Assembly: GCA_947561715.1 (NCBI GenBank)
Contig: OX387202.1
Coordinates: forward strand, 8,507,001-8,571,000
Origin: Ascidia mentula
Taxonomy: Eukaryota > Chordata > Ascidiacea > Phlebobranchia > Ascidiidae
Length of the DNA: 64,000 nucleotides
Direction: 5' to 3'
The position numbers were made by a program, and so were the translations under genes. Within the stretch, counting starts at the first letter, position 1. Each line of letters begins with the position of its first letter. Under the pieces are notes generated by a model. The model made no database searches, was not told where the DNA came from, and saw only the letters and a program-made list of their open reading frames with translations. This document shows, one piece after another, positions 1 through 13,590 of the stretch.

Positions 1-517
1 GCAAGAAAAGTTGGATGCCAACTAAAAGCACACTACTAATGATTAATATGCTCTCAGTGCACAACCGTACAGTTGCACACAACTATGGGTAAATTGATAG
101 CACTACAGCAGTGTTTTTAAACTGGTGGTATGCCCACCACAATATTCCAGAATGGTACGCGAACACCTTTCCATAATTTGCAGATATAGCTCGAATTTAA
201 AAAATCGTAAGTGATTTCAACATGTTTGTTAATTCATCCCCTAGGTTACTTTGTAACACTCAGCTAGGTGGTATGCATCAAAATTGTTTTTAAAGTGGTT
301 CGCAACCACAAAAAGGTTACAGCACTACAGCATATCAAAAATGCTGTACAAAGTTAAGTCATTACCATTGTTCTCAGAATTGAATGCTTTGAATCTGATC
401 CACCGATTAAATGGCATCCAACATGATTTGAACTACTGTCACGTCTTATTAAAACTGTTATCTAAATGAAGTATGGGTTAATCATATCTTTTGAAGAATT
501 AACACAACAAATGCAAC

Positions 518-3500
518 CTGAAATTTTCCCTGATTTTGGTCAGAACTTGAAGAAGCTTCAGCATCAGTTACCGCAATAAATTGTAAAAGGTTAAGTAAAT
601 TGTCTTTGTCTTGTCTTGGCTTAGGTAGCATTTTTCGCATTGTTTTATTTGTTTGCTTGATCCTTTTGGGCTCACAGTGATTAGGGGCATGATCATGCTC
701 GAAAATATGATGCTCTTGTTTGCATAATAGGGGTACTTTTTCTTTGTCCTTACTCAGTTTTTCAGAATGTTCAATACCATTATCTTTTGTTATTGTATCA
801 GTGAGAATATTTGCAGGTGTTGCAGTATTATGACATGCACTGCAAAGTGTTATTTCAGTAGAATCTTCTGGTTCCTTACTCATATGTTTAGTAATCTCTT
901 GAAGAACTTGACAATTATTGACATGAGAATAACCATTTTTTACTTTTTCTGAGCTCTTAAATGTTTGCAGCTGGGAGACACTAGAAGTTGATCCCTCATG
1001 ACTTATTGGTGATTGTGAGGAAGTTGTTGACGGTTCAACCATGCAATCACCATTACAACTTGTTATTGGAGTGTTCTGTAGGTTGTCACTTGATTCTTGG
1101 TTGATAATTTGCAAATTATCATTTTGAGTCTCACTGACTGATACTTCTCCCAATTGCTGCTCACTTAAAAAAAGTTGTTATTGCTGAATAAACAGAACAT
1201 GTTATTGTGTAAATGCGGACAAAGTTAATGAAATTAGTTGCTTATATGTACCATTTATAGAACATTTCCCATTCACAAAAAAATAATAAATCATCACATG
1301 CAAATAAACAAACCTTGATATATATTCGCTTGAATGCCTTTCTTGGATGGGAGAACTATTTGCCTCATCAGAAGTTATATTAGTTAGAGAGTTATGGTTG
1401 AGCAAGTTTCTGGTGTCAGCCTCACCGGCATATTTATCTGACATAGAAAAAACAAAATTAATATATATGTCAGAGGTAATTAAATTAGACTGTCTGCTTA
1501 ACACCTTCAGTAATCATAGAATCAAGTGCCTGTGATAAATCATTTTCACAAAAATGATCATTACTCTTTAAATTGGATGCAACACTGAGACTACTATCAC
1601 TTGAAGTTACACTGCTTCTGTGTCTGTGGTTGATTGTATTGTGTGGAAAGGAGCTGAACAAACTTGACCTCCCTGAAATACAGTATTACCCAGTCTTTGT
1701 TTTGCTGAATGTTCAGGGGTACATTTGTCATGGCAAAACATAAACAACAGTACAATGGTTAATTTAGGTTTGGTGTTTTACAAAGCCCTGTACAGCAATC
1801 ACAATCATGCATATAAAAAGCTGTTAACAGTTCAAATTCAACAAATAAAAATAAAACCAAATTGACTGTATTAAGTTTTTTTAAAAACAATTCTGTCATT
1901 GAGGATTTTCTTCAGAGCGATTGAATTACATGAAAAAGAAATTCTGGCAAACTACTTTGTTTTTACAAGAAATAGCGGGCAAGACTTACCATCAGCAACA
2001 ACAAATGACAAACCACCAGATGGTTGATCTAGAGCATTTTTCTTACTAAGGGGGCCGGTGTAGCGTTGTTCCCTAAACAGTGTGGCTTAACAAGCTATTT
2101 TTCAAACATTTATAATATAGATTAGCACAAAAAGATAAGTATTACACATTTAAGCCTTAAACAATAAATTTGATAATTTTGAAATCATTTCATGATGTAT
2201 ATATATTATTTGTCTTAAAATAAGCAAGTGATGCATTTTTTATATAACAGCCATTACTGTCAATGGTTTCATTGCTTTATTGCTAGGGTGTGCAACCTTT
2301 CGTGCAGCCAGGCCAACTACGCCCAATCAGAAAGATACATAACAAATTTTTACATTTATCTTTTAAAAACGATAGAGTGTCACAAAATCTCATTTCACAA
2401 ACTGCTGGTTGCACACCCCAAATTTAAAAGACTGATGAAGACAGACTCTTTGATTCCATTCAAAAAAGCAAGGCTGTTGTGCAAACAGAAAAACACTTGA
2501 CTGTCAATATATCTTGATACCACAGCATCTTTATTCCATAATAATCTAAAGTGAGTTGTTTTTCATTGTGTAACAACATTCTTCATTAATGTTGTAAAGG
2601 TTTTGTTCATTACTTGCACATTACCTGCTGTGAAGTCTCTCCAAAATTTCTGTCACAGGAACATCAAGTTTCCCCAAGAACCTTCTAAATGTTGGATGAC
2701 CCCTATCAAATCTATCTCGGACTTCAAACTCAATCACATCACTTCTCAATACTTGCACATAAAACTGCAACAAATATGTATATTTATCATGTTTTCTTTC
2801 TAAACAAAAAGCTGGGATGTGTCTCTTTAAATACAAAGACAATATGCCTACTGAGCATAATTAAATAGTAACATACTGATACACTATGTCTTGGCTGTGA
2901 TTCCAGTAAACCTAGTGATCGTTAAGCAAGGACCTGCGCAGTGGGGCGATCCAGCCTTGTCATTTCTGTTTTGTCTAATACACTTTTTTCGAAAATTGGG
3001 GGAAAAAACAAGATACCATTCAAGCTGCCCAATTTGGTTTGGAAAACAATGTTAAATTAAGTTGTAAAATTGTTTTCAAATGTCCCCATGACATAATTAT
3101 AGGGACATATTGTACGTGAAGTACACATACATATTTTATAATATCAAAACCTTTTTATCAAAGTTTTGTAATGAAAATAATTATATTGTAATTTAAACTA
3201 TATATTACTGTAAACCTGTTCTTTCCAAGTTGGATTTGTGGTATCTTCAACCTGCTTTGTGTGTAGTATTTGTTTGTGGTGGGCACGTTTTTTGCGATTT
3301 GCCCCAGGAAGTACTCTCAATTTTACATATGGATCGGGGTTGAAGAAAACCCCTCTCTTCAAATTATAGCCGGTGATTCCTGCAAAGAGTAAACAAAATG
3401 TAGGTTGAATATAAATTTGGTATTTACTCTATCTGCTTGCTGATTAAAATGGTAAGTAGATAAAGTATATGTATGTTGAAATGGCGAATGAATAGAGCAG

Positions 3501-4180
3501 GCCTGCCCAACCCACAACCAACTTATGGCGCTCTACGATGTTTTAATTTGATCTGCTGTATGTTATGAGTTTGGATGAAGTATATTTTCCATCACAATAG
3601 ATCAGTTAATTCTGTTATAGATCTATTAATCAAAATCTTGTTTGTTGAACACTGTCAATATACAAATTTGGTGAGAATGCAAAGCAGTTGGCAACAGTGT
3701 GCATAATTAATGACTGATTACAACTTCTTATTGTTAATTGTAACGTCACAATAAAATGATTTTATACTCCACAATGTACAAAGATTTTATGCTAGATATC
3801 TGATGATATTGTTTGGAATGTTTGCCAAACTAAAGTTACGTGTAAAGTAAGAAATTAACAGTTAATTTAGCTAAAATGAACAGATACAAAATGAAAACAT
3901 AAATAGTGTGATAAGAACGCAATGTTATTAATAAGTAAAAGACTTAATTGGTATTTAATTTTGAAAAATGTTTGTGGGCCCTGCAACACCTACAAAGTTG
4001 GGCAGACCTGACACAGGGGATTGGAGTAAATGGGCATGGGCAGAGACTAAATTTCATTTCCCAAAAATCGTGATTAGCAAAAAACATATGCAAGCATATG
4101 ACAACTATACCTGTTATAAGAAAAGACAAGTATGTATCAGAACCGCTGCTAACACTTATTTCATTATGTTCTTCAGACAT
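518..4180 (-). CDS. HECW: HECW1/2-like C2-HECT E3 ubiquitin ligase, 5' part
   Basis: Seven phase-matched coding exons: 4111-4180, 3216-3379, 2625-2764, 1990-2072, 1505-1672, 1314-1437 and 518-1163. Exons 2-4 encode a C2 domain that follows human HECW1/2 closely: FFNPDPYVKLRVLPG, then AHHKQ, DTTNPTW, DVIEFEVRDRF and RRFLGKLDVPV. After the C2 domain comes a Ser/Thr/acid-rich linker, as in the family, where the C2 domain binds membrane and the C-terminal HECT domain transfers ubiquitin. The last exon ends at a GT donor at 516-517, so the WW and HECT exons should lie beyond the left edge. I chose the ATG at 4178-4180; a strong poly-pyrimidine/AG site at about 4233 could be a trans-splice acceptor. 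The HECW N-terminal domain seen in vertebrates is not in this model and may be lost or lie upstream. The C2 call is firm, the 5' end is not. Confidence 0.82.
2931..2960. repeat. Short fragment of the repeat family seen at 4463-4860
   Basis: A stretch containing CTGCGCAGTGGGGCGATCC lies in an intron of the HECW-like gene. The same motif, in the opposite orientation, occurs at about 4500-4525 inside the tRNA-containing insertion. This suggests a dispersed repeat piece; its ends cannot be set by eye. Confidence 0.45.
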
Positions 4181-5238: not shown

Positions 5239-5484
5239 CTCTTCTTACTATTGTCATTCTGGCAGAATCCAAAATTATTGTTTCGCAAAATGCGTTCCGC
5301 ATCAATGAGCAGCATTGCACAAGAAGGTTTAACTTGTACAAGAGTTTATTGTTGGTATATAACATACCAGTAAGCATTATTTTGCAAAATATTTCACTTC
5401 TTAATCATTTCGTACCAATACCTCTGTAGAAGTCCCAAGTTTATATTCAAAATAACCTGAAATACGGATCTTATTGCTCATTTT

Positions 5485-6945
5485 TGCATTGCTGGTGACG
5501 TCACTTTCAATCAAATGCCGAACCACTTTCCGCTTCATAGGATTTTATTTAAATCTCAGTATCTGTCAAGGATGGAGTGCAGAATAGCGTGAAAGTAATA
5601 AAAATCGGTAGAGATCCCACGTATTCCATCAGAATGACCTGAAACACCAGTGTTTTTGCGCTTTTTTGCATTGCCGGTGACGTCACATTCAATCAAGTGC
5701 CAAACCACTTTCCGCTTCATAGGATTTTATTTAAATCTCAGTATCTGTCAAGGATGGAGTGCAGAATAGCGTGAAAGTAATAAAAATCGGTAGAGATCCC
5801 ACGTATTCCATCAGAATGACCTGAAACACCAGTGTTTTTGCGCTTTTTTGCATTGCCGGTGACGTCACTTTCAATCAAGTGCCAAACCACTTTCCGCTTC
5901 ATAGGATTTTATTTAAATCTCAGTATCTGTCAAGGATAGAGTCCAGATTAGCGTGAAATTAATAAAAATCGGTAGAGATCCCACGTATTCCATCAGAATG
6001 ACCTAAAACACGGGTGTTTTTGCGCTTTTTTGCATTGCCGGTGACGTCACATTCAATCAAGTGCCAAACCACTTTCCGCTTCATAGGATTTTATTTAAAT
6101 CTCAGTATCTGTCAAGAATGGAGTGCAGAATAGCGTGAAAGTAATAAAAATCGGTAGAGATCCCACGTATTCCATCAGAATGACCTGAAACACCAGTGTT
6201 TTTGCGCTTTTTTGCATTGCCGGTGACGTCACTTTCAATCAAGTGCCAAACCACTTTCCGCTTCATAGGATTTTTTCTAAATCTCAGTATCTGTCAAGGA
6301 TAAAGTGCAGAATAGCGTGAAAGTAATAAAAATCAGTAGAGATCCCACGTATTCCATCAGAATGACCTGAAACACCAGTGTTTTTGCGCTTTTTTGCATT
6401 GCCGGTGACGTCACATTCAATCAAGTGCCAAACCACTTTCCGCTTCATAGGATTTTATTTAAATCTCAGTATCTGTAAAGGATAGAGTGAAGAATAGCGT
6501 GAAAGTAATAAAAATCGGTAGAGATCCCACGTATTCCATCAGAATGACCTAAAACACGTGTGTTTTTGCGCTCTTTTGCATTGCCGGTGACGTCACTTTC
6601 AATCAAGTGCCAAACCACTTTCCGCTTCATAGGATTTTTTTTAAATCTCAGTATCTGTCAAGGATAAAGTGCAGAATAGCGAGAAAGTAATAAAAATCGG
6701 TAGAGATCCCACGTATTCCATCAGAATGACCTAAAACACGTGTGTTTTTGCGCTCTTTTGCATTGCCGGTGACGTCACTTTCAATCAAGTGCCAAACCAC
6801 TTTCCGCTTCATAGGATTTTATTTAAATCTCAGTATCTGTCAAGGATGGAGTGCAGAATAGCGTGAAAGTAATAAAAATCGGGAGAGATCCCACGTTTTC
6901 CATCAGAATGACTTCAAACCAGGGCTTTTTCACTTTTTTGCGATT
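5485..6945 (+). repeat. Tandem array of a 182-bp unit, left arm, 8 units
   Basis: The landmark AGGATTTTAT recurs at 5539, 5721, 5903, 6085, 6267, 6449, 6631 and 6813, with every spacing exactly 182 bp. Units differ by scattered base changes only; no insertion or deletion shifts the register. Each unit contains GTGACGTCAC, which includes the full CRE palindrome TGACGTCA (first at 5496-5503), followed alternately by TTTC or ATTC. The last unit fades out after about 6940. Together with the array at 10247-12318 it forms the arms of the transposon. Confidence 0.95.
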
Positions 6946-8414
6946 TTTGATGAGGCCCAACGCTCCACCAGATGAGCTGTACATGATCGAAACGATTAGA
7001 GAAGTCAGATTTTGGCCTATGCAGTGTTTCGTGCACAAATTGCCTGGCAAAATTTGCATTTACGATATCCACCATTGTAATCAAACAACACAGAAATGTT
7101 TACATTGCATGCTATAAATACCATAGCTGCCAAATGAGGGTTTTCTCATTGTGACGATCCTGTCTCGTTATGCGATAGCCTTAGAGGTGCTTAATATTAT
7201 CCGATTGGGAGTTTGTATTGACGAATGGTAGTGGCGAAATCGTCGGATTCTAACCTTATTTCCATACCGACATTAACATCCTTTGCAACACTTCTTGATT
7301 AAATATGCCAATTGCCCATGCTGGTTGACTTGATTCGATATTTTGCATGTTTAATTTCGGTTTACGTCGCTTTATAAAGTATGGTGATACACATACCAAA
7401 CTCGTTTGTTAGTCTTTTCATAAACACGCCTAACCCTTGCGAATATGTACATGTAACCATTTATGTTGACTTCCTTTCAATACGAAGGTTGCTTAGATTT
7501 ATATTTCGGCTTGTAAAGGGCGTCATCAGTTTCCGTGGAATGCAAAACATATATAAGCAATGTGATAAACATTTGAAACATAGGTCCAGGAAGTATCAAA
7601 CCTTTTACTCAGCACTATAGATACGGTAATCGATCGACAGCCTGCCAGGGTAGCTTGGTTCCATCATCCAGTAAGGTTTGAACAAATGATTTTTTCTCTC
7701 GTTTGTTTTCCTTTTTGTATTGCGAATGTGCATGGTCGCCATTAGGCCTATTATTAGCATTGCGCACACCTTTATCGTCAATTTTGCGTGTAAAACGTAC
7801 TGTGAACATACATTATTTTTCAAACATTTTTTTTTATATATTGAAGTACATCCCAATATCAGGGTTAAGTACTTTGTAGCGTCATTCGATTTAAATTGCG
7901 ATCGTGTGATGCAAACCGCCTTTGACATATGGGTGAAAATGTACCCGCAATCGCGTTGGTAAGAATTTGCATTGACACTTACCAAGTCGCATGTGGGATA
8001 ATGTCAGAACTGGAAGCTGCATTGATAAAATTGTCATCGCATTCCATCGTTAGGGGAGTTTGTTTGTGACAGGGATACTTCACCCTACGTAATGGGCTGG
8101 GGCTTTCTTACCCAAATTTTATTTACGAGCCCAGCACTGTCTTTCTCTCACAATATCACATATCACGAGACTATATGTTTATACGGTAACGCTTTTCGCC
8201 CTTTCTGACCGTTCTATTTGATTCTAAATATATTCCATTTTATTTTATGCTATTTAGTTACATTTCATCAATAAACAATTATACCCAACTGCCTGCATCT
8301 TAGCCAAGTGCACTGGTAAACGACAATTCAAAGGCAATTAGCCAGCATAATCATCGTGACAAGTTGCAACTTCACATTCAAACCCTAAACGTATATTATG
8401 TTGTTTTGGACATA
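6946..8414. other. Left part of the transposon core, no gene recognised
   Basis: Non-repetitive sequence inside the long-inverted-repeat element. Several short open frames exist (up to about 126 codons) but none shows a known domain, and their codon content looks random. It may be a decayed coding region or captured DNA. Confidence 0.5.
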
Positions 8415-8553
8415 CTGTTGGCCAGGCTTTAAATAACGAGCACGTTCGTTATGTTGTTTGGGACATCGGTGTCATAATATTGTACGCGTACCTTAGATAA
8501 CGTGCGTGTGTCGTAATAATGAACGTGCGCGTTATCTAAAGCCTGGCCAACAG
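8415..8553. repeat. 139-bp imperfect hairpin
   Basis: 8415-8452 and 8516-8553 are inverted copies of a 38-nt arm beginning CTGTTGGCCAGGCTTTA, with only a few mismatches and a loop of about 63 nt. It has the look of a small foldback or MITE inside the core of the larger element. The GGCCAAC..GTCATAA motif is shared with the neighbouring palindrome at 8620-9676. Confidence 0.75.
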
Positions 8554-8619
8554 TGTCAAATTCCAAATAAGAGCGACATCATGTGGAATAATAAGGCACG
8601 CGCGCGTTAGTAAGCAACA

Positions 8620-9676
8620 CGTTCGATATTAGTGTACATGTACCTTAACAGGACATATTTCATGGCCAACAACGTCATAAGTCAAACTGATGTACGCGTA
8701 CCTAGTTAACGAACATGCAACTTATTAAGGTGCTTGTAACTTAGTAACATGTTAAGTTGGCCGACAGTGTCATAATCTTAGGTAAAATTACTTGTACTAT
8801 CGTCGTATATTTTCATTTCAAACAACAAATAGTTAGCTTCAAGTCAAAGCTTATGGGAGTCGATATGCCCTTGTTTTCTGCTTTTACTTTGCAAATATCA
8901 CTCATGCATCCATCTTGTGGATATCTGTGGTTCGCACCGTTTACTTTGATGTATCGCAACCCCAAAGAGAACCTAAAACGTGAGGTTTTACTGCAATCAA
9001 CTCTGCTTTTTGGCAAGCTTAACACGATTAAATTGCGACGTAAAGATGCCAACTTTGTAAAATTATTGTGTGGCATTGCAAGCGCTGTAAAATTCTTTTG
9101 AATATTGGCAGCCCATGCGCATTAAAACAAAGTATGTATATGTTTACTATAACTTAAAATCAAAATAATTTGTAAAGGCATATGCGTACGTAAAAGTACA
9201 AGGTTAGCTGAGAATACAGCGCAATTTCGCTGTTCAAATGTTCAATTCTGGAAAAAGAGGACAAATTTGACAAAGGATAAATATTTGAAAAATACATTTC
9301 CGGTACTTACAAATTTGTGCGGGGCCATGGTATATTTGGGCCTGTGATGAAACACTTAGATTTTTAAGCAGTTGCGATAACATTTGAGGATTTGACATAG
9401 ATCTGACGCTACCTGCCACTAGATGGATACATGAGTGATATTAGCAAAGGTGAAAGCAGAAAACAAGAGCATATCGACGCCCATAAGCTGATGACAGTAC
9501 ATGTAATTTTACATAGGATTATGAAACTATCGGCCAACTTAACATGCGCGCACGTTAATTAGTTACGTTAATAAGTTGCATGTTCGTTAATTAAGTACGC
9601 GTACATGAGTTTGACTTATTACACGGTTGGCCATGAAATGTATCCTATTAAGGTGCATGTACAGTAATAGCGAACG
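8620..9676. repeat. Nested 1.06-kb palindrome inside the transposon core
   Basis: The left arm 8620-8920 and right arm 9416-9676 are inverted copies at roughly 80% identity by eye, with small gaps. Shared stretches include GTACGCGTAC, GTTAAGTTGGCCGA and GTCGATATGC. The spacer 8921-9415 (about 495 bp) shows nothing recognised. The lower arm identity compared with the 182-bp arrays suggests this foldback is older than the last homogenisation of the outer arms, or belongs to a separate family that inserted earlier. Confidence 0.8.
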
Positions 9677-10246
9677 TTTCCGACTCATGAAAATTTCAGC
9701 AATCTTTGATCCTGTTACCAGTAGGTACTAACCACAGATGATGCAGAAATGTTTATGAACTCAATTGTCAAAGATGTGGCAGTTATCAAAACTCCTGATA
9801 ATCTAAAACTGTCCGAATAAACGTGCGCAATGTTTTTTCTTTAATTGTGCCTGTTTACCCAATTTGTTTCTTAGATTTAGTGGCCACCATGAAAATTGTG
9901 TTTCTTATATGTTTGTGTAACAAGCAAAGATGACTTTCACCTGTGATACATCAACATCATGCACAAATTTAACATTTTTTAAGAGTAAATATCATTTCAT
10001 TTGAAAATGTTAAATCAAAATATTTATTTTAACAAGCATTACCTTTACGGTCATTTATATTCACTACAAAAAGAAGGAAAAAGAATTGGACGCACATTGC
10101 ACAATAAAACGTTCTTTGCAAGTTCATAAGTGTGACACATTGTGATTAGAAGGGAAAATGTATGATATTGCGTGAAAAATCGAGTGTGCCACTCCATTAG
10201 ATATTGCGACGACATAAATCCTGGACAAATATAGAGATTTAAAAAA
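9677..10246. other. Right part of the transposon core, nothing recognised
   Basis: AT-rich sequence between the nested palindrome and the right 182-bp array. No coding or RNA feature was recognised. Confidence 0.5.
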
Positions 10247-12318
10247 ATCCTATGAAGCGGAAAGTGGTTTGGCACTTGATTGAAAGTGACGTCACCGGCA
10301 ATGCAAAAAAGCGTAAAAACACCCGTGTTTCAGGTCATTCTGATGGAATACGTGGGATCTCTACCGATTTTTATTACTTTCACGCTATTCTGCACTTTAT
10401 CCTTGACAGATACTGAGATTTAGAAAAAATCCTATGAAGCGGAAAGTGGTTTGGCACTTGATTGAATGTGACGTCACCGGCAATGCAAAAAAGCGCAAAA
10501 ACACCCGTGTTTCAGGTCATTCTGATGGAATACGTGGGATCTCTACCGATTTTTATTACTTTCTCGCTATTCTGCACTCCATCCTTGACAGATACTGAGA
10601 TTTAAATAAAATCCTATGAAGCGGAAAGTGGTTTGGCACTTGATTGAAAGTGACGTCACCGGCAATGCAAAAAAGCGCAAAAACACCCGTGTTTCAGGTC
10701 ATTCTGATGGAATACGTGGGATCTCTACCAATTGTTATTACTTTCACGCTATTCTGCACTTTATCCTTGACAGATACTGAGATTTAGAAAAAATCCTATG
10801 AAGCGGAAAGTGGTTTGGCACTTGATTGAAAGTGACGTCACCGGCAATGCAAAAAAGCCCAAAAACACCCGTGTTTCAGGTCATTCTGATGGAATACGTG
10901 GGATCTCTACCGATTGTTATTACTTTCACGCTATTCTGCACTCTATCCTTGACAGATACTGAGATTTAGAAAAAATCCTATGAAGCGGAAAGTGGTTTGG
11001 CACTTGATTGAAATTGACGTCACCGGCAATGCAAAAAAGCCCAAAAACACCCGTGTTTCAGGTCATTCTGATGGAATACGTGGGATCTCTACCGATTGTT
11101 ATTACTTTCACGCTATTCTGCACTCTATCCTTGACAGATACTGAGATTTAAATAAAATCCTATGAAGCGGAAAGTGGTTTGGTACTTGATTGAATGTGAC
11201 GTCACCGGCAATGCAAAAAAGCGCAAAAACACCCGTGTTTCAGGTCATTGTGATGGAATACGTGGGATCTCTACCGATTTTTATTAATTTCACGCTAATC
11301 TGGACTCTATCCTTGACAGATACTGAGATTTAAATAAAATCCTATGAAGCGGAAAGTGGTTTGGCACTTGATTGAATGTGACGTCACCGGCAATGCAAAA
11401 AAGCGCAAAAACACCCGTGTTTCAGGTCATTGTGATGGAATACGTGGGATCTCTACCGATTTTTATTACTTTCACGCTATTCTGCACTCCATCCTTGACA
11501 GATACTAAGATTTAAATAAAATCCTATGAAGCGGAAAGTGGTTTGGCACTTGATTGAAAGTGACGTCACCGGCAATGCAAAAAAGCGCAAAAACACCCGT
11601 GTTTCAGGTAATTCTGATGGAATACGTGGGATCTCTACCGATTTTTATTACTTTCACGCTATTCTGCACTTTATCCTTGACAGATACTGAGATTTAAATA
11701 AAATCCTATGAAGCGGAAAGTGGTTTGGGACTTGATTGAAAGTGACGTCACCGGCAATGCAAAAAAGCGCAAAAACACTGGTGTTTTAGGTCATTCTGAT
11801 GGAATACGTGGGATCTCTACCGATTTTTATTACTTTCACGCTATTCTGCACTCCATCCTTGACAGATACTGAGATTTAAATAAAATCCTATGAAGCGGAA
11901 AGTGGTTTGGCACTTGATTGAAAGTGACGTCACCGGCAATGCAAAAAAGCGAAAAAACACTGGTGTTTTAGGTCATTCTGATGGAATACGTGGGATCTCT
12001 ACCGATTTTTATTACTTTCACGCTATTCTGCACTCCATCCTTGACAGATACTGAGATTTAAATAAAATCCTATGAAGCGGAAAGTGGTTTGGCACTTGAT
12101 TGAATGTGACGTCACCGGCAATGCAAAAAAGCGAAAAAACACTGGTGTTTCAGGTCATTCTGATGGAATACTTGGGATCTCTACCGATTTTTATTACTTT
12201 CACGCTATTCTGCACTCCATCCTTGACAGATACTGAGATTTAAATAAAATCCTATGAAGCGGAAAGTGGTTCGGCATTTGATTGAAAGTGACGTCACCAG
12301 CAATGCAAAAATGAGCAA
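10247..12318 (-). repeat. Tandem array of the 182-bp unit, right arm, 12 units, inverted
   Basis: The landmark CCTATGAAGCGG recurs at 10249, 10431, 10613, 10795, 10977, 11159, 11341, 11523, 11705, 11887, 12069 and 12251, every step 182 bp. It is the reverse complement of the left array and again carries one TGACGTCA per unit. Higher-order pattern: some neighbouring units share private variants, such as CACCCGTG against CACTGGTG and TAGAAAAAAT against TAAATAAAAT. This points to local expansion by unequal exchange. Confidence 0.95.
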
Positions 12319-12734
12319 TAAGATCCGTATTTCAGGTTATTTTGAATATAAACTTGGGACTTCTACAGAGGTATTGGTACGAAATGATTAAGAAGTGAAA
12401 TATTTTGCAAAATAATGCTTACTGGTATGTTATATACCAACAATAAACTCTTTTGTACAAGGTAAACCTTCTTGTGCAATGCTGCTCATTGATGCGGAAC
12501 GCATTTTGCGAAACAATAATTTTGGATTCTGCCAGAATGACAGTAGTCTCTTCTTAGTTTAAACGACTAATCCAGGTTTGATTGACGTGGATACCTCTGT
12601 ACTTTGCAATTCAAGGTTCAAGTATTCATTCCCAACTAAACAAATTATTGTTTGTCTGGACGCATGTTTAACCTTAAAAATATGGCAAATACACTTTATT
12701 ATTCTGCCAGAATAAATGTGGTATGTATATGATT

Positions 12735-13190
12735 ACTATTTTCATTCTGGCAGAATCCGAATATGTTTCTACGTAAAAAACATTCTGCATCAATGATCAC
12801 CATTTCACGGGATGGTTCATAAGATACAAACGTGTTTGTTCTGTCTATAAATCACTGTACGTCTAATTATTTAACCCAAAATCAAACTGGGAGGTTAGAA
12901 AACACAAATTACTGGCAGAAAATCCCACATTTTTCATCAGAATAGCTTCAAACATCAGCGATTTTACGTATTTCACTACGGGGTGTACGTCACATTCAAC
13001 CGCGTGCCAAAATACTTTTCACCACCTACAATTGTTTTAAAATCTCTGTATCTGTCAAGAATCTAGTGCTGAATAACGAGAAAACAAATAAAATCGGTAC
13101 AAATCCCAGGTATTCCACCAGAATGACTTCAAACACAAGCGATTTTGCGTGTTTTTCCAGGGTGGTATGTCACATTCAATCACATTCGTT
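12735..13190 (+). mobile_element. Decayed relative of the long-inverted-repeat transposon
   Basis: Starting at 12735, ACTATTTTCATTCTGGCAG repeats the terminus of the intact element, followed by an alignable but diverged terminal block (ATTCTGCATCAATGATCACC). From about 12920 to 13190 come about two diverged versions of the 182-bp unit, still with CACATTCAA..GTGCCAAA-type landmarks but no intact CRE palindrome. The same terminal motif also occurs at 12697-12712 in inverted form. It looks like an old, truncated copy in direct orientation beside the young one. Confidence 0.7.
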
Positions 13191-13298: not shown

Positions 13299-13590
13299 GC
13301 AATTTCAACACACAATCACGAAAGTTAGGCAATTCCAAGACACAATCTCGAAAATCAGGCAATTCCAAGTAATTCCAATACACATTCACGAAAGTCAGGC
13401 AATTCCAACACACAATCACGAAAGTTAGGCAGTACCAACACACAATCACAAAAGTCAGGCAATTCCAAAAAGCAATCACGAAAGTTAGGCAATTCCAAGA
13501 CACAGTCACAAAAGTCAGGCAATTCCAAAACACAAAAGTCAGGGTATTCCAACACACATTCACGAAAGTCAGGCAATTCCAACGTACGAT
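13299..13590. repeat. 30-bp minisatellite, about 9 units
   Basis: Tandem units of the form AGGCAATTCCAACACACAAT plus CACGAAAGTC, mostly 30 bp, with variant and shortened units (for example near 13367 and 13528). Apparent reading frames across it on the minus strand, rich in WNCLTFV-like repeats, are simply translations of the repeat. Confidence 0.9.

Follow-up and report, generated by a model that had tools for sequence, protein, structure and literature searches.

We analysed a stretch of 64,000 nucleotides from the ascidian Ascidia mentula (assembly GCA_947561715.1, contig OX387202.1, positions 8,507,001 to 8,571,000; hereafter the window), and found that positions 5247-12547, flanked on both sides by CTCTTCTT, are with near certainty a foldback-type transposon. 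In our interpretation, this 7.3-kb element belongs to a foldback-type family of DNA transposons as a recent and non-autonomous member, derived by deletion from a larger element; we assign this interpretation a probability of about 0.8. The evidence comes from the copies of the element across the genome, from its satellite arms and core, and from long relatives carrying a hydrolase-like gene.

Copies of the element and their target duplications

The two ends of the element are long inverted arms. The outer parts (5247-5344 and 12450-12547) are 97% complementary and the longer inner parts (5340-6930 and 10862-12452) are 96% complementary, and arrays of a 182-bp unit occupy 5474-6941 (8.1 copies) and 10218-12345 (11.7 copies). 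Repeat and complementarity analysis thereby bears out the inverted ends, the 182-bp satellite arms and the unequal arm lengths (8 against 12 units) that a preliminary description, made from the letters of the window, had reported. A 19-mer tip pattern, allowed up to 3 mismatches, matched the window three times, at both ends of the element and at a separate relic at 12740, against no match in 100 dinucleotide shuffles. In the window's copy the base following the 8-bp duplication also fits by chance, and the length of 8 bp is taken from the other copies.

The assembly searched for these copies comprises 195.8 Mb in 79 contigs. The 241-bp end had 41 genome matches (40 of 141 candidates scored), and a 24-bp tip pattern with up to 3 mismatches had 167, 84 forward and 83 reverse, against none for the reversed control pattern. 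Among the 100 of these matches that were listed, 64 made up 32 convergent pairs, defined as tips within 30 kb of each other; they lie 0.6-22.5 kb apart, 0.38 pairs were expected by chance, and 32 is a lower bound. Counting the window's own, at least 14 matches covered the full length of the core, with 93-100% identity (40 of 258 candidates scored). Two core copies, at C67:1249749 and C67:1568505, have a left flank that is identical over 49 bases, and they therefore probably reflect a segmental duplication and not two insertions.

Flanking sequences were compared in 21 copies, consisting of 20 of the 32 listed pairs and L016, with the remaining 12 pairs outside the comparison. Ten complete copies and L040 came from fetched loci, and ten pairs were represented by 20-base flanks; L044, whose right end was too diverged for the flank to be placed, and L021, both ends of which are interrupted by other sequence, were dropped before counting. 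Perfect 8-bp duplications, all distinct, were found in 15 copies, one copy matched at 7 of 8 positions, two at 6 of 8, and three had no duplication. At 29% G+C, compared with 37% for the window, the perfect duplications are A+T-rich, and inspection by eye gave no clear motif. The ends thus recur as convergent pairs and most of the compared copies have an 8-bp duplication of their own, which indicates that the whole unit inserts as one piece. The foldback-type transposon with an 8-bp duplication that had been proposed from the single copy is in this way supported by many.

In two short tip pairs without a duplication (C67:12781033-12781928 and C72:17763990-17765551), one host flank is the inverted complement of the other, at 14 of 14 and 13 of 14 bases. 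These pairs look like one end that was duplicated palindromically together with host DNA, or like assembly artefacts.

Satellite arms, core and origin of the short form

All ten complete copies, 3.7-12.6 kb long, have the same layout, in which a tip of 227 bp is followed by units, the core, inverted units and an inverted tip; L016 has a shortened core, and the core of the single copy spanning L014 and L015 is interrupted. The number of units per arm ranges from 4 to 27 among these ten. Long inverted ends that contain tandem repeats and vary in length between copies, the features by which foldback elements are recognised, were therefore observed throughout. The ends are also polar. The motif on the core-start side is ACTATTG in all ten copies, and that on the other side is ACTACTG in nine and ACAACTG in one. 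The fifth base distinguishes the two sides, being T at all ten core-start ends and C at all ten opposite ends.

Divergence was compared among the 202 units that could be cut from the ten copies, excluding units with irregular anchors. The mean divergence of the 182-bp units is 3.7% within an array, 4.0% against the other arm of the same element and 3.9-4.1% against other elements, so that array-specific homogenisation was hardly seen in this set, whereas eight complete cores differ by 1.3% on average. Units that are barely more alike within an array than between elements, combined with cores only 1.3% apart, suggest that the variety of the units is older than the spread of the copies, and the same pattern suggests that arrays change in length by whole units. 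From about 5422 in the window, the inner end of the tip can be aligned with the unit, of which it resembles a diverged first copy. The satellite probably grew out of the transposon end in this way, that is, the 182-bp units are probably derived from the inner part of the end, with which their homology is shown. A 9-mer that the unit has in common with the outermost 60 bp of the tip was considered as a possible binding site and rejected as not significant, because 76 of 1000 shuffles reach it.

The core connects the short form with longer elements. Two long relatives, C2:8728268-8750140 and C73:9080907-9102415, share it, and the inner hairpin of the core (Table 1) also occurs independently elsewhere, in L050, L051 and L056. 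The second arm of the hairpin stops at 9677 in the window's copy and likewise in those further short copies that are aligned through that point. In the C2 and C73 copies the second arm is complete, and about 10.1 kb in all precedes the point at which the core resumes. The end of the hairpin arm that is absent from the short core is also present in the independent hairpin copies. An insertion could not supply the missing arm, which argues that the short form lost the 10.1-kb stretch. From these alignments, the 7.3-kb form is best read as an internal-deletion derivative of a larger element, and its parent is likely to have carried the hydrolase-like gene described below. The C2 and C73 copies are identical at 5518 of 5520 positions compared, and their total lengths differ by 364 bp, exactly two units.

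In one copy, from 4729 of L014 into L015 (C1:1931976-1944571), a 2.7-kb stretch of the core consists of 803 bp, about 1084 bp and the same 803 bp again, with about 215 bp of core on both sides. L055 (C72:10849500-10858000) joins the same tip (98% over 166 bp) to another satellite at 308-3675. The tip there leads into a tandem repeat of 195 bp; an inverted partner occupies 3319-3675, and a reverse-transcriptase fragment lies in between. The hairpin copy in L056 ends in GGTTGGCCATCGGTGTCATAAT, possibly with a TA duplication.

Table 1 Parts of the foldback-type element, in window positions
Feature	Position	Strand	Remark
Left target duplication, CTCTTCTT	5239..5246	.	Directly precedes 5247
Left end (tip), 227 bp, starts ACTATTGTCATTCTGGCAGAATCC	5247..5473	+	
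Left arm, 8 units of the 182-bp repeat	5474..6940	+	
Core, 3.28 kb	6941..10217	.	No recognisable gene in the frames tested
Inner hairpin, an inverted-repeat element resembling a miniature inverted-repeat transposable element (MITE), with independent copies elsewhere	8460..9677	.	Second arm cut off at 9677
Junction, probable deletion point of the short form	9677..9678	.	10.1 kb more in two long relatives
Right arm, with the 182-bp unit repeated about 12 times in inverted orientation	10218..12318	-	
Right end (tip), read inward starts ACTACTGTCATTCTGGCAGAATCC	12319..12547	-	
Right target duplication, CTCTTCTT	12548..12555	.	Directly after 12547

Outside the element, a diverged relic of the same family lies at 12701-12758 and 12922-12973, about 150-190 bp past the right end. 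It consists of an inverted tip-like end (12701-12722), a forward tip at 12735 and a unit-like piece (12922-12973), and it adjoins an imperfect 30-bp tandem repeat of about 9 copies (13299-13583). A Pfam scan of nine long frames located elsewhere in the window produced no more than two weak matches, neither of which reached the cut-off.

The hydrolase-like gene and the search for the transposase

Long copies carry a gene resembling SGNH/GDSL hydrolases. The open exon in L038 matched PF13472 with E=2.8e-4 and 21.9 bits, a weak match that lies below the curated cut-off of 32.9. By eye, the translation of this first exon contains DSN and GTND and that of a damaged second exon in L045 contains DNLHL, which may be the motifs of the SGNH/GDSL catalytic residues. 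The exon has 75 matches in the genome, 8 of which lie inside the listed tip pairs, where 0.12 were expected from the 0.157% of the genome covered by the 32 pairs; one of the eight is distant (35% identity). Among the full-length copies with at least 90% identity, 7 of 9 are located within seven tip pairs, which span 15.0-22.5 kb. Each of these pairs has a perfect 8-bp duplication that differs from those of the others, and their exons are 96-100% identical. The enrichment of SGNH copies in tip pairs with perfect duplications indicates that the gene moves with the element.

The other two copies with at least 90% identity (C2:14350033 and C71:5410036) are in no listed pair, and a further damaged copy is found amid arm and core pieces adjoining the tip at C72:9376146. 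Twenty more copies, with 65-75% identity over most of the exon, lie outside the listed pairs and may belong to related families. A relative of the exon with a solved structure was sought by sequence, and the single match, a nanobody at E 0.03, was not meaningful. Distant SGNH matches (35-38%) were also seen about 3-6 kb from Ulp1-type protease matches, perhaps in another mobile family (C72:4509379/4512302, C71:18527334/18531326, C52:13715158/13720818 and C67:9335671/9339733).

Profile searches were carried out exon by exon across the genome, and the matches were placed against the 32 listed tip pairs. No match lay inside these pairs for MULE (0 of 77, E up to 10), P RNase H (0 of 21, E up to 0.001), P GTP-binding (0 of 21, E up to 10), THAP (0 of 26, E up to 1), KDZ (0 of 6, E up to 0.001), Ulp1 (0 of 114, E up to 1) or hAT (0 of 39, E up to 0.001, the search covering the dimerisation domain only). 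The frames tested in the 7.3-kb copy likewise matched no transposase model, and nothing recognisable is encoded there. The initial proposal that this copy has no transposase and depends on a helper elsewhere agrees with these frames and with the existence of longer, gene-bearing copies. The full-length copy encoding a P or hAT transposase that was to be looked for did not appear in the listed pairs, as far as the P and THAP models and the hAT dimerisation domain could reveal one.

KDZ/Zisupton elements make 8-nucleotide duplications. All 15 perfect duplications have the 8-bp length characteristic of the hAT superfamily, and duplications of 8 bp fit both P and hAT. A transposase of a class poorly described by the Pfam models used, encoded inside the long SGNH copies, has about even odds in our estimate; candidates would be an undescribed type, or a hAT or KDZ/Zisupton type that is split or has diverged strongly. 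The seven copies of 15.0-22.5 kb, with their perfect 8-bp duplications and no match to the seven models, speak for such a class, although a known domain spread over many small exons could escape an exon-by-exon search and hAT was represented by a single domain at a strict threshold.

A foldback of Mutator/Phantom type would belong to the class that holds most of the placed foldback elements, which seem to be mostly Mutator with duplications of 8-10 bp (PMC4079207, PMC3169594). We consider it unlikely, as MULE matches were absent from the listed pairs even at E up to 10. The perfect duplications measure 8 bp in 15 of 15 cases, those of Tm1 from root-knot nematodes being mostly 9 bp.

The preliminary description had favoured the P superfamily, with Galileo of Drosophila as the model, in which a THAP-domain P transposase would move the element. 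Galileo indeed has long, internally repeated ends with tandem units (PMC3573991, PMC3688188), and the genome contains P transposase genes, one of them (C72:10860188-10862372, with THAP, RNase H and GTP-binding domains in open frames) only about 10 kb from a tip match at C72:10849807. Nevertheless, neither P domain nor THAP was matched in the listed pairs, the seven long gene-bearing copies included, and Galileo duplications are 7 bp and not 8 bp (PMC3573991), so that this assignment is not supported and appears very unlikely. No listed tip pair encloses the P gene on C72, and retroelement-like frames lie between it and the tip in the part read, which stops 2 kb short of the gene; we take it as a probable chance neighbour. 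P transposons are reported from Ciona intestinalis. L055 was rejected as an autonomous P copy, the part read containing the reverse-transcriptase fragment and retroelement-like frames and not the P gene.

Least credible, with hardly any weight left, is a local rearrangement that placed two inverted satellite arrays beside a chance short direct repeat. The two palindromic-looking tip pairs with inverted-complement flanks and no duplication could suggest it, yet perfect, distinct 8-bp duplications at different sites in 15 of the 21 compared copies refute it for the window's copy. The preliminary description would have turned to such a rearrangement had there been no other copies, or none with duplications; both were found, with the reservation that 3 of the 21 compared copies have no duplication.

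The interpretation that we prefer, a recent deletion derivative mobilised in trans, would work as follows. A transposase made elsewhere would bind the ends and move the unit, which would be joined to a target site whose two strands are cut 8 bp apart. The 182-bp units would arise from the inner part of the end, and unequal exchange or slippage would make the arrays grow and shrink by whole units, giving the 4-27 units per arm. Internal deletion of a larger element would produce the 7.3-kb form, and the present-day relatives of 15-22 kb combine the SGNH/GDSL-like gene with several further kb that may hold the transposase. A bolder version, in which these SGNH copies are autonomous giant foldbacks with an undescribed transposase class, a lipid/ester hydrolase is integral to them as a second gene and the satellite-armed 7.3-kb elements parasitise them, seems quite unlikely to us.

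Several observations weigh against the preferred interpretation. L018 and the two short palindromic pairs have no duplication, and two copies match at only 6 of 8 positions. The C2 and C73 long copies are only 86-90% identical to the 7.3-kb core, which makes them relatives and not the immediate parent, and the five other SGNH-bearing long copies had no core match among the 40 of 258 candidates that were scored. One pair, C2:15107864-15129491, contains a second, distant SGNH match, so that nested insertions are possible. Finally, the seven models found no transposase in the listed pairs of the family, where a domain split over small exons could have escaped them, and direct reading inside the long copies covered no more than 1.4 kb.

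Relation to known foldback elements and significance

The foldback elements of sea urchins, called TU, have 8-bp duplications. By description, they resemble the present family as foldback elements of a deuterostome; sea-urchin foldbacks are also cited in PMC4079207. No paper on foldback elements of tunicates or Ciona was found in the open-licence PMC literature, a negative of little weight.

The layout can be compared with Tetris/DAIBAM of the Drosophila virilis group, in which an end domain is followed by tandem units and a non-coding middle, the duplications are 8-10 bp, the units of about 220 bp vary in number and are thought to be end-derived, and no autonomous copy is reported to have been found (PMC4079207). 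The present family differs in sequence and host; its perfect duplications are without exception 8 bp long, its arms extend to 27 units, and it has long relatives that carry SGNH. Galileo is similar in its long inverted ends, its internal tandem repeats of varying number and its many defective copies (PMC3573991, PMC3688188), and differs in its 7-bp duplications and its THAP/P transposase, of which the listed tip pairs have no match. For the THAP domain of Galileo, the arms are reported to provide additional binding sites (PMC3688188). Tm1, a Mutator/foldback family, has composite inverted ends of variable length that are common to histone-hairpin, MITE-like and transposase-encoding groups (PMC3169594); its duplications of mostly 9 bp and its Phantom-type transposase set it apart from the present family, in whose listed tip pairs no MULE match was found. 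SGNH genes on mobile elements are known from texim in fish Helitrons (PMC4021074), and GDSL genes from rotifer Terminons (PMC6431247). The likeness is that of an SGNH/GDSL hydrolase gene travelling with a transposon, carried there by Helitrons and retroelements and here by an inverted-repeat element with 8-bp duplications.

In many cases foldback elements are represented by defective copies alone, with the moving enzyme missing. Here, defective copies with satellite arms occur in one genome together with several shorter derivatives and with seven large copies that have a conserved gene and perfect duplications, and the missing transposase should be readable from the seven SGNH-bearing intervals. 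If the SGNH hydrolase is integral to the element, a gene reported from Helitrons and giant retroelements would also have an instance in an inverted-repeat DNA transposon. The copies of this family also show how part of a transposon end can become a satellite.

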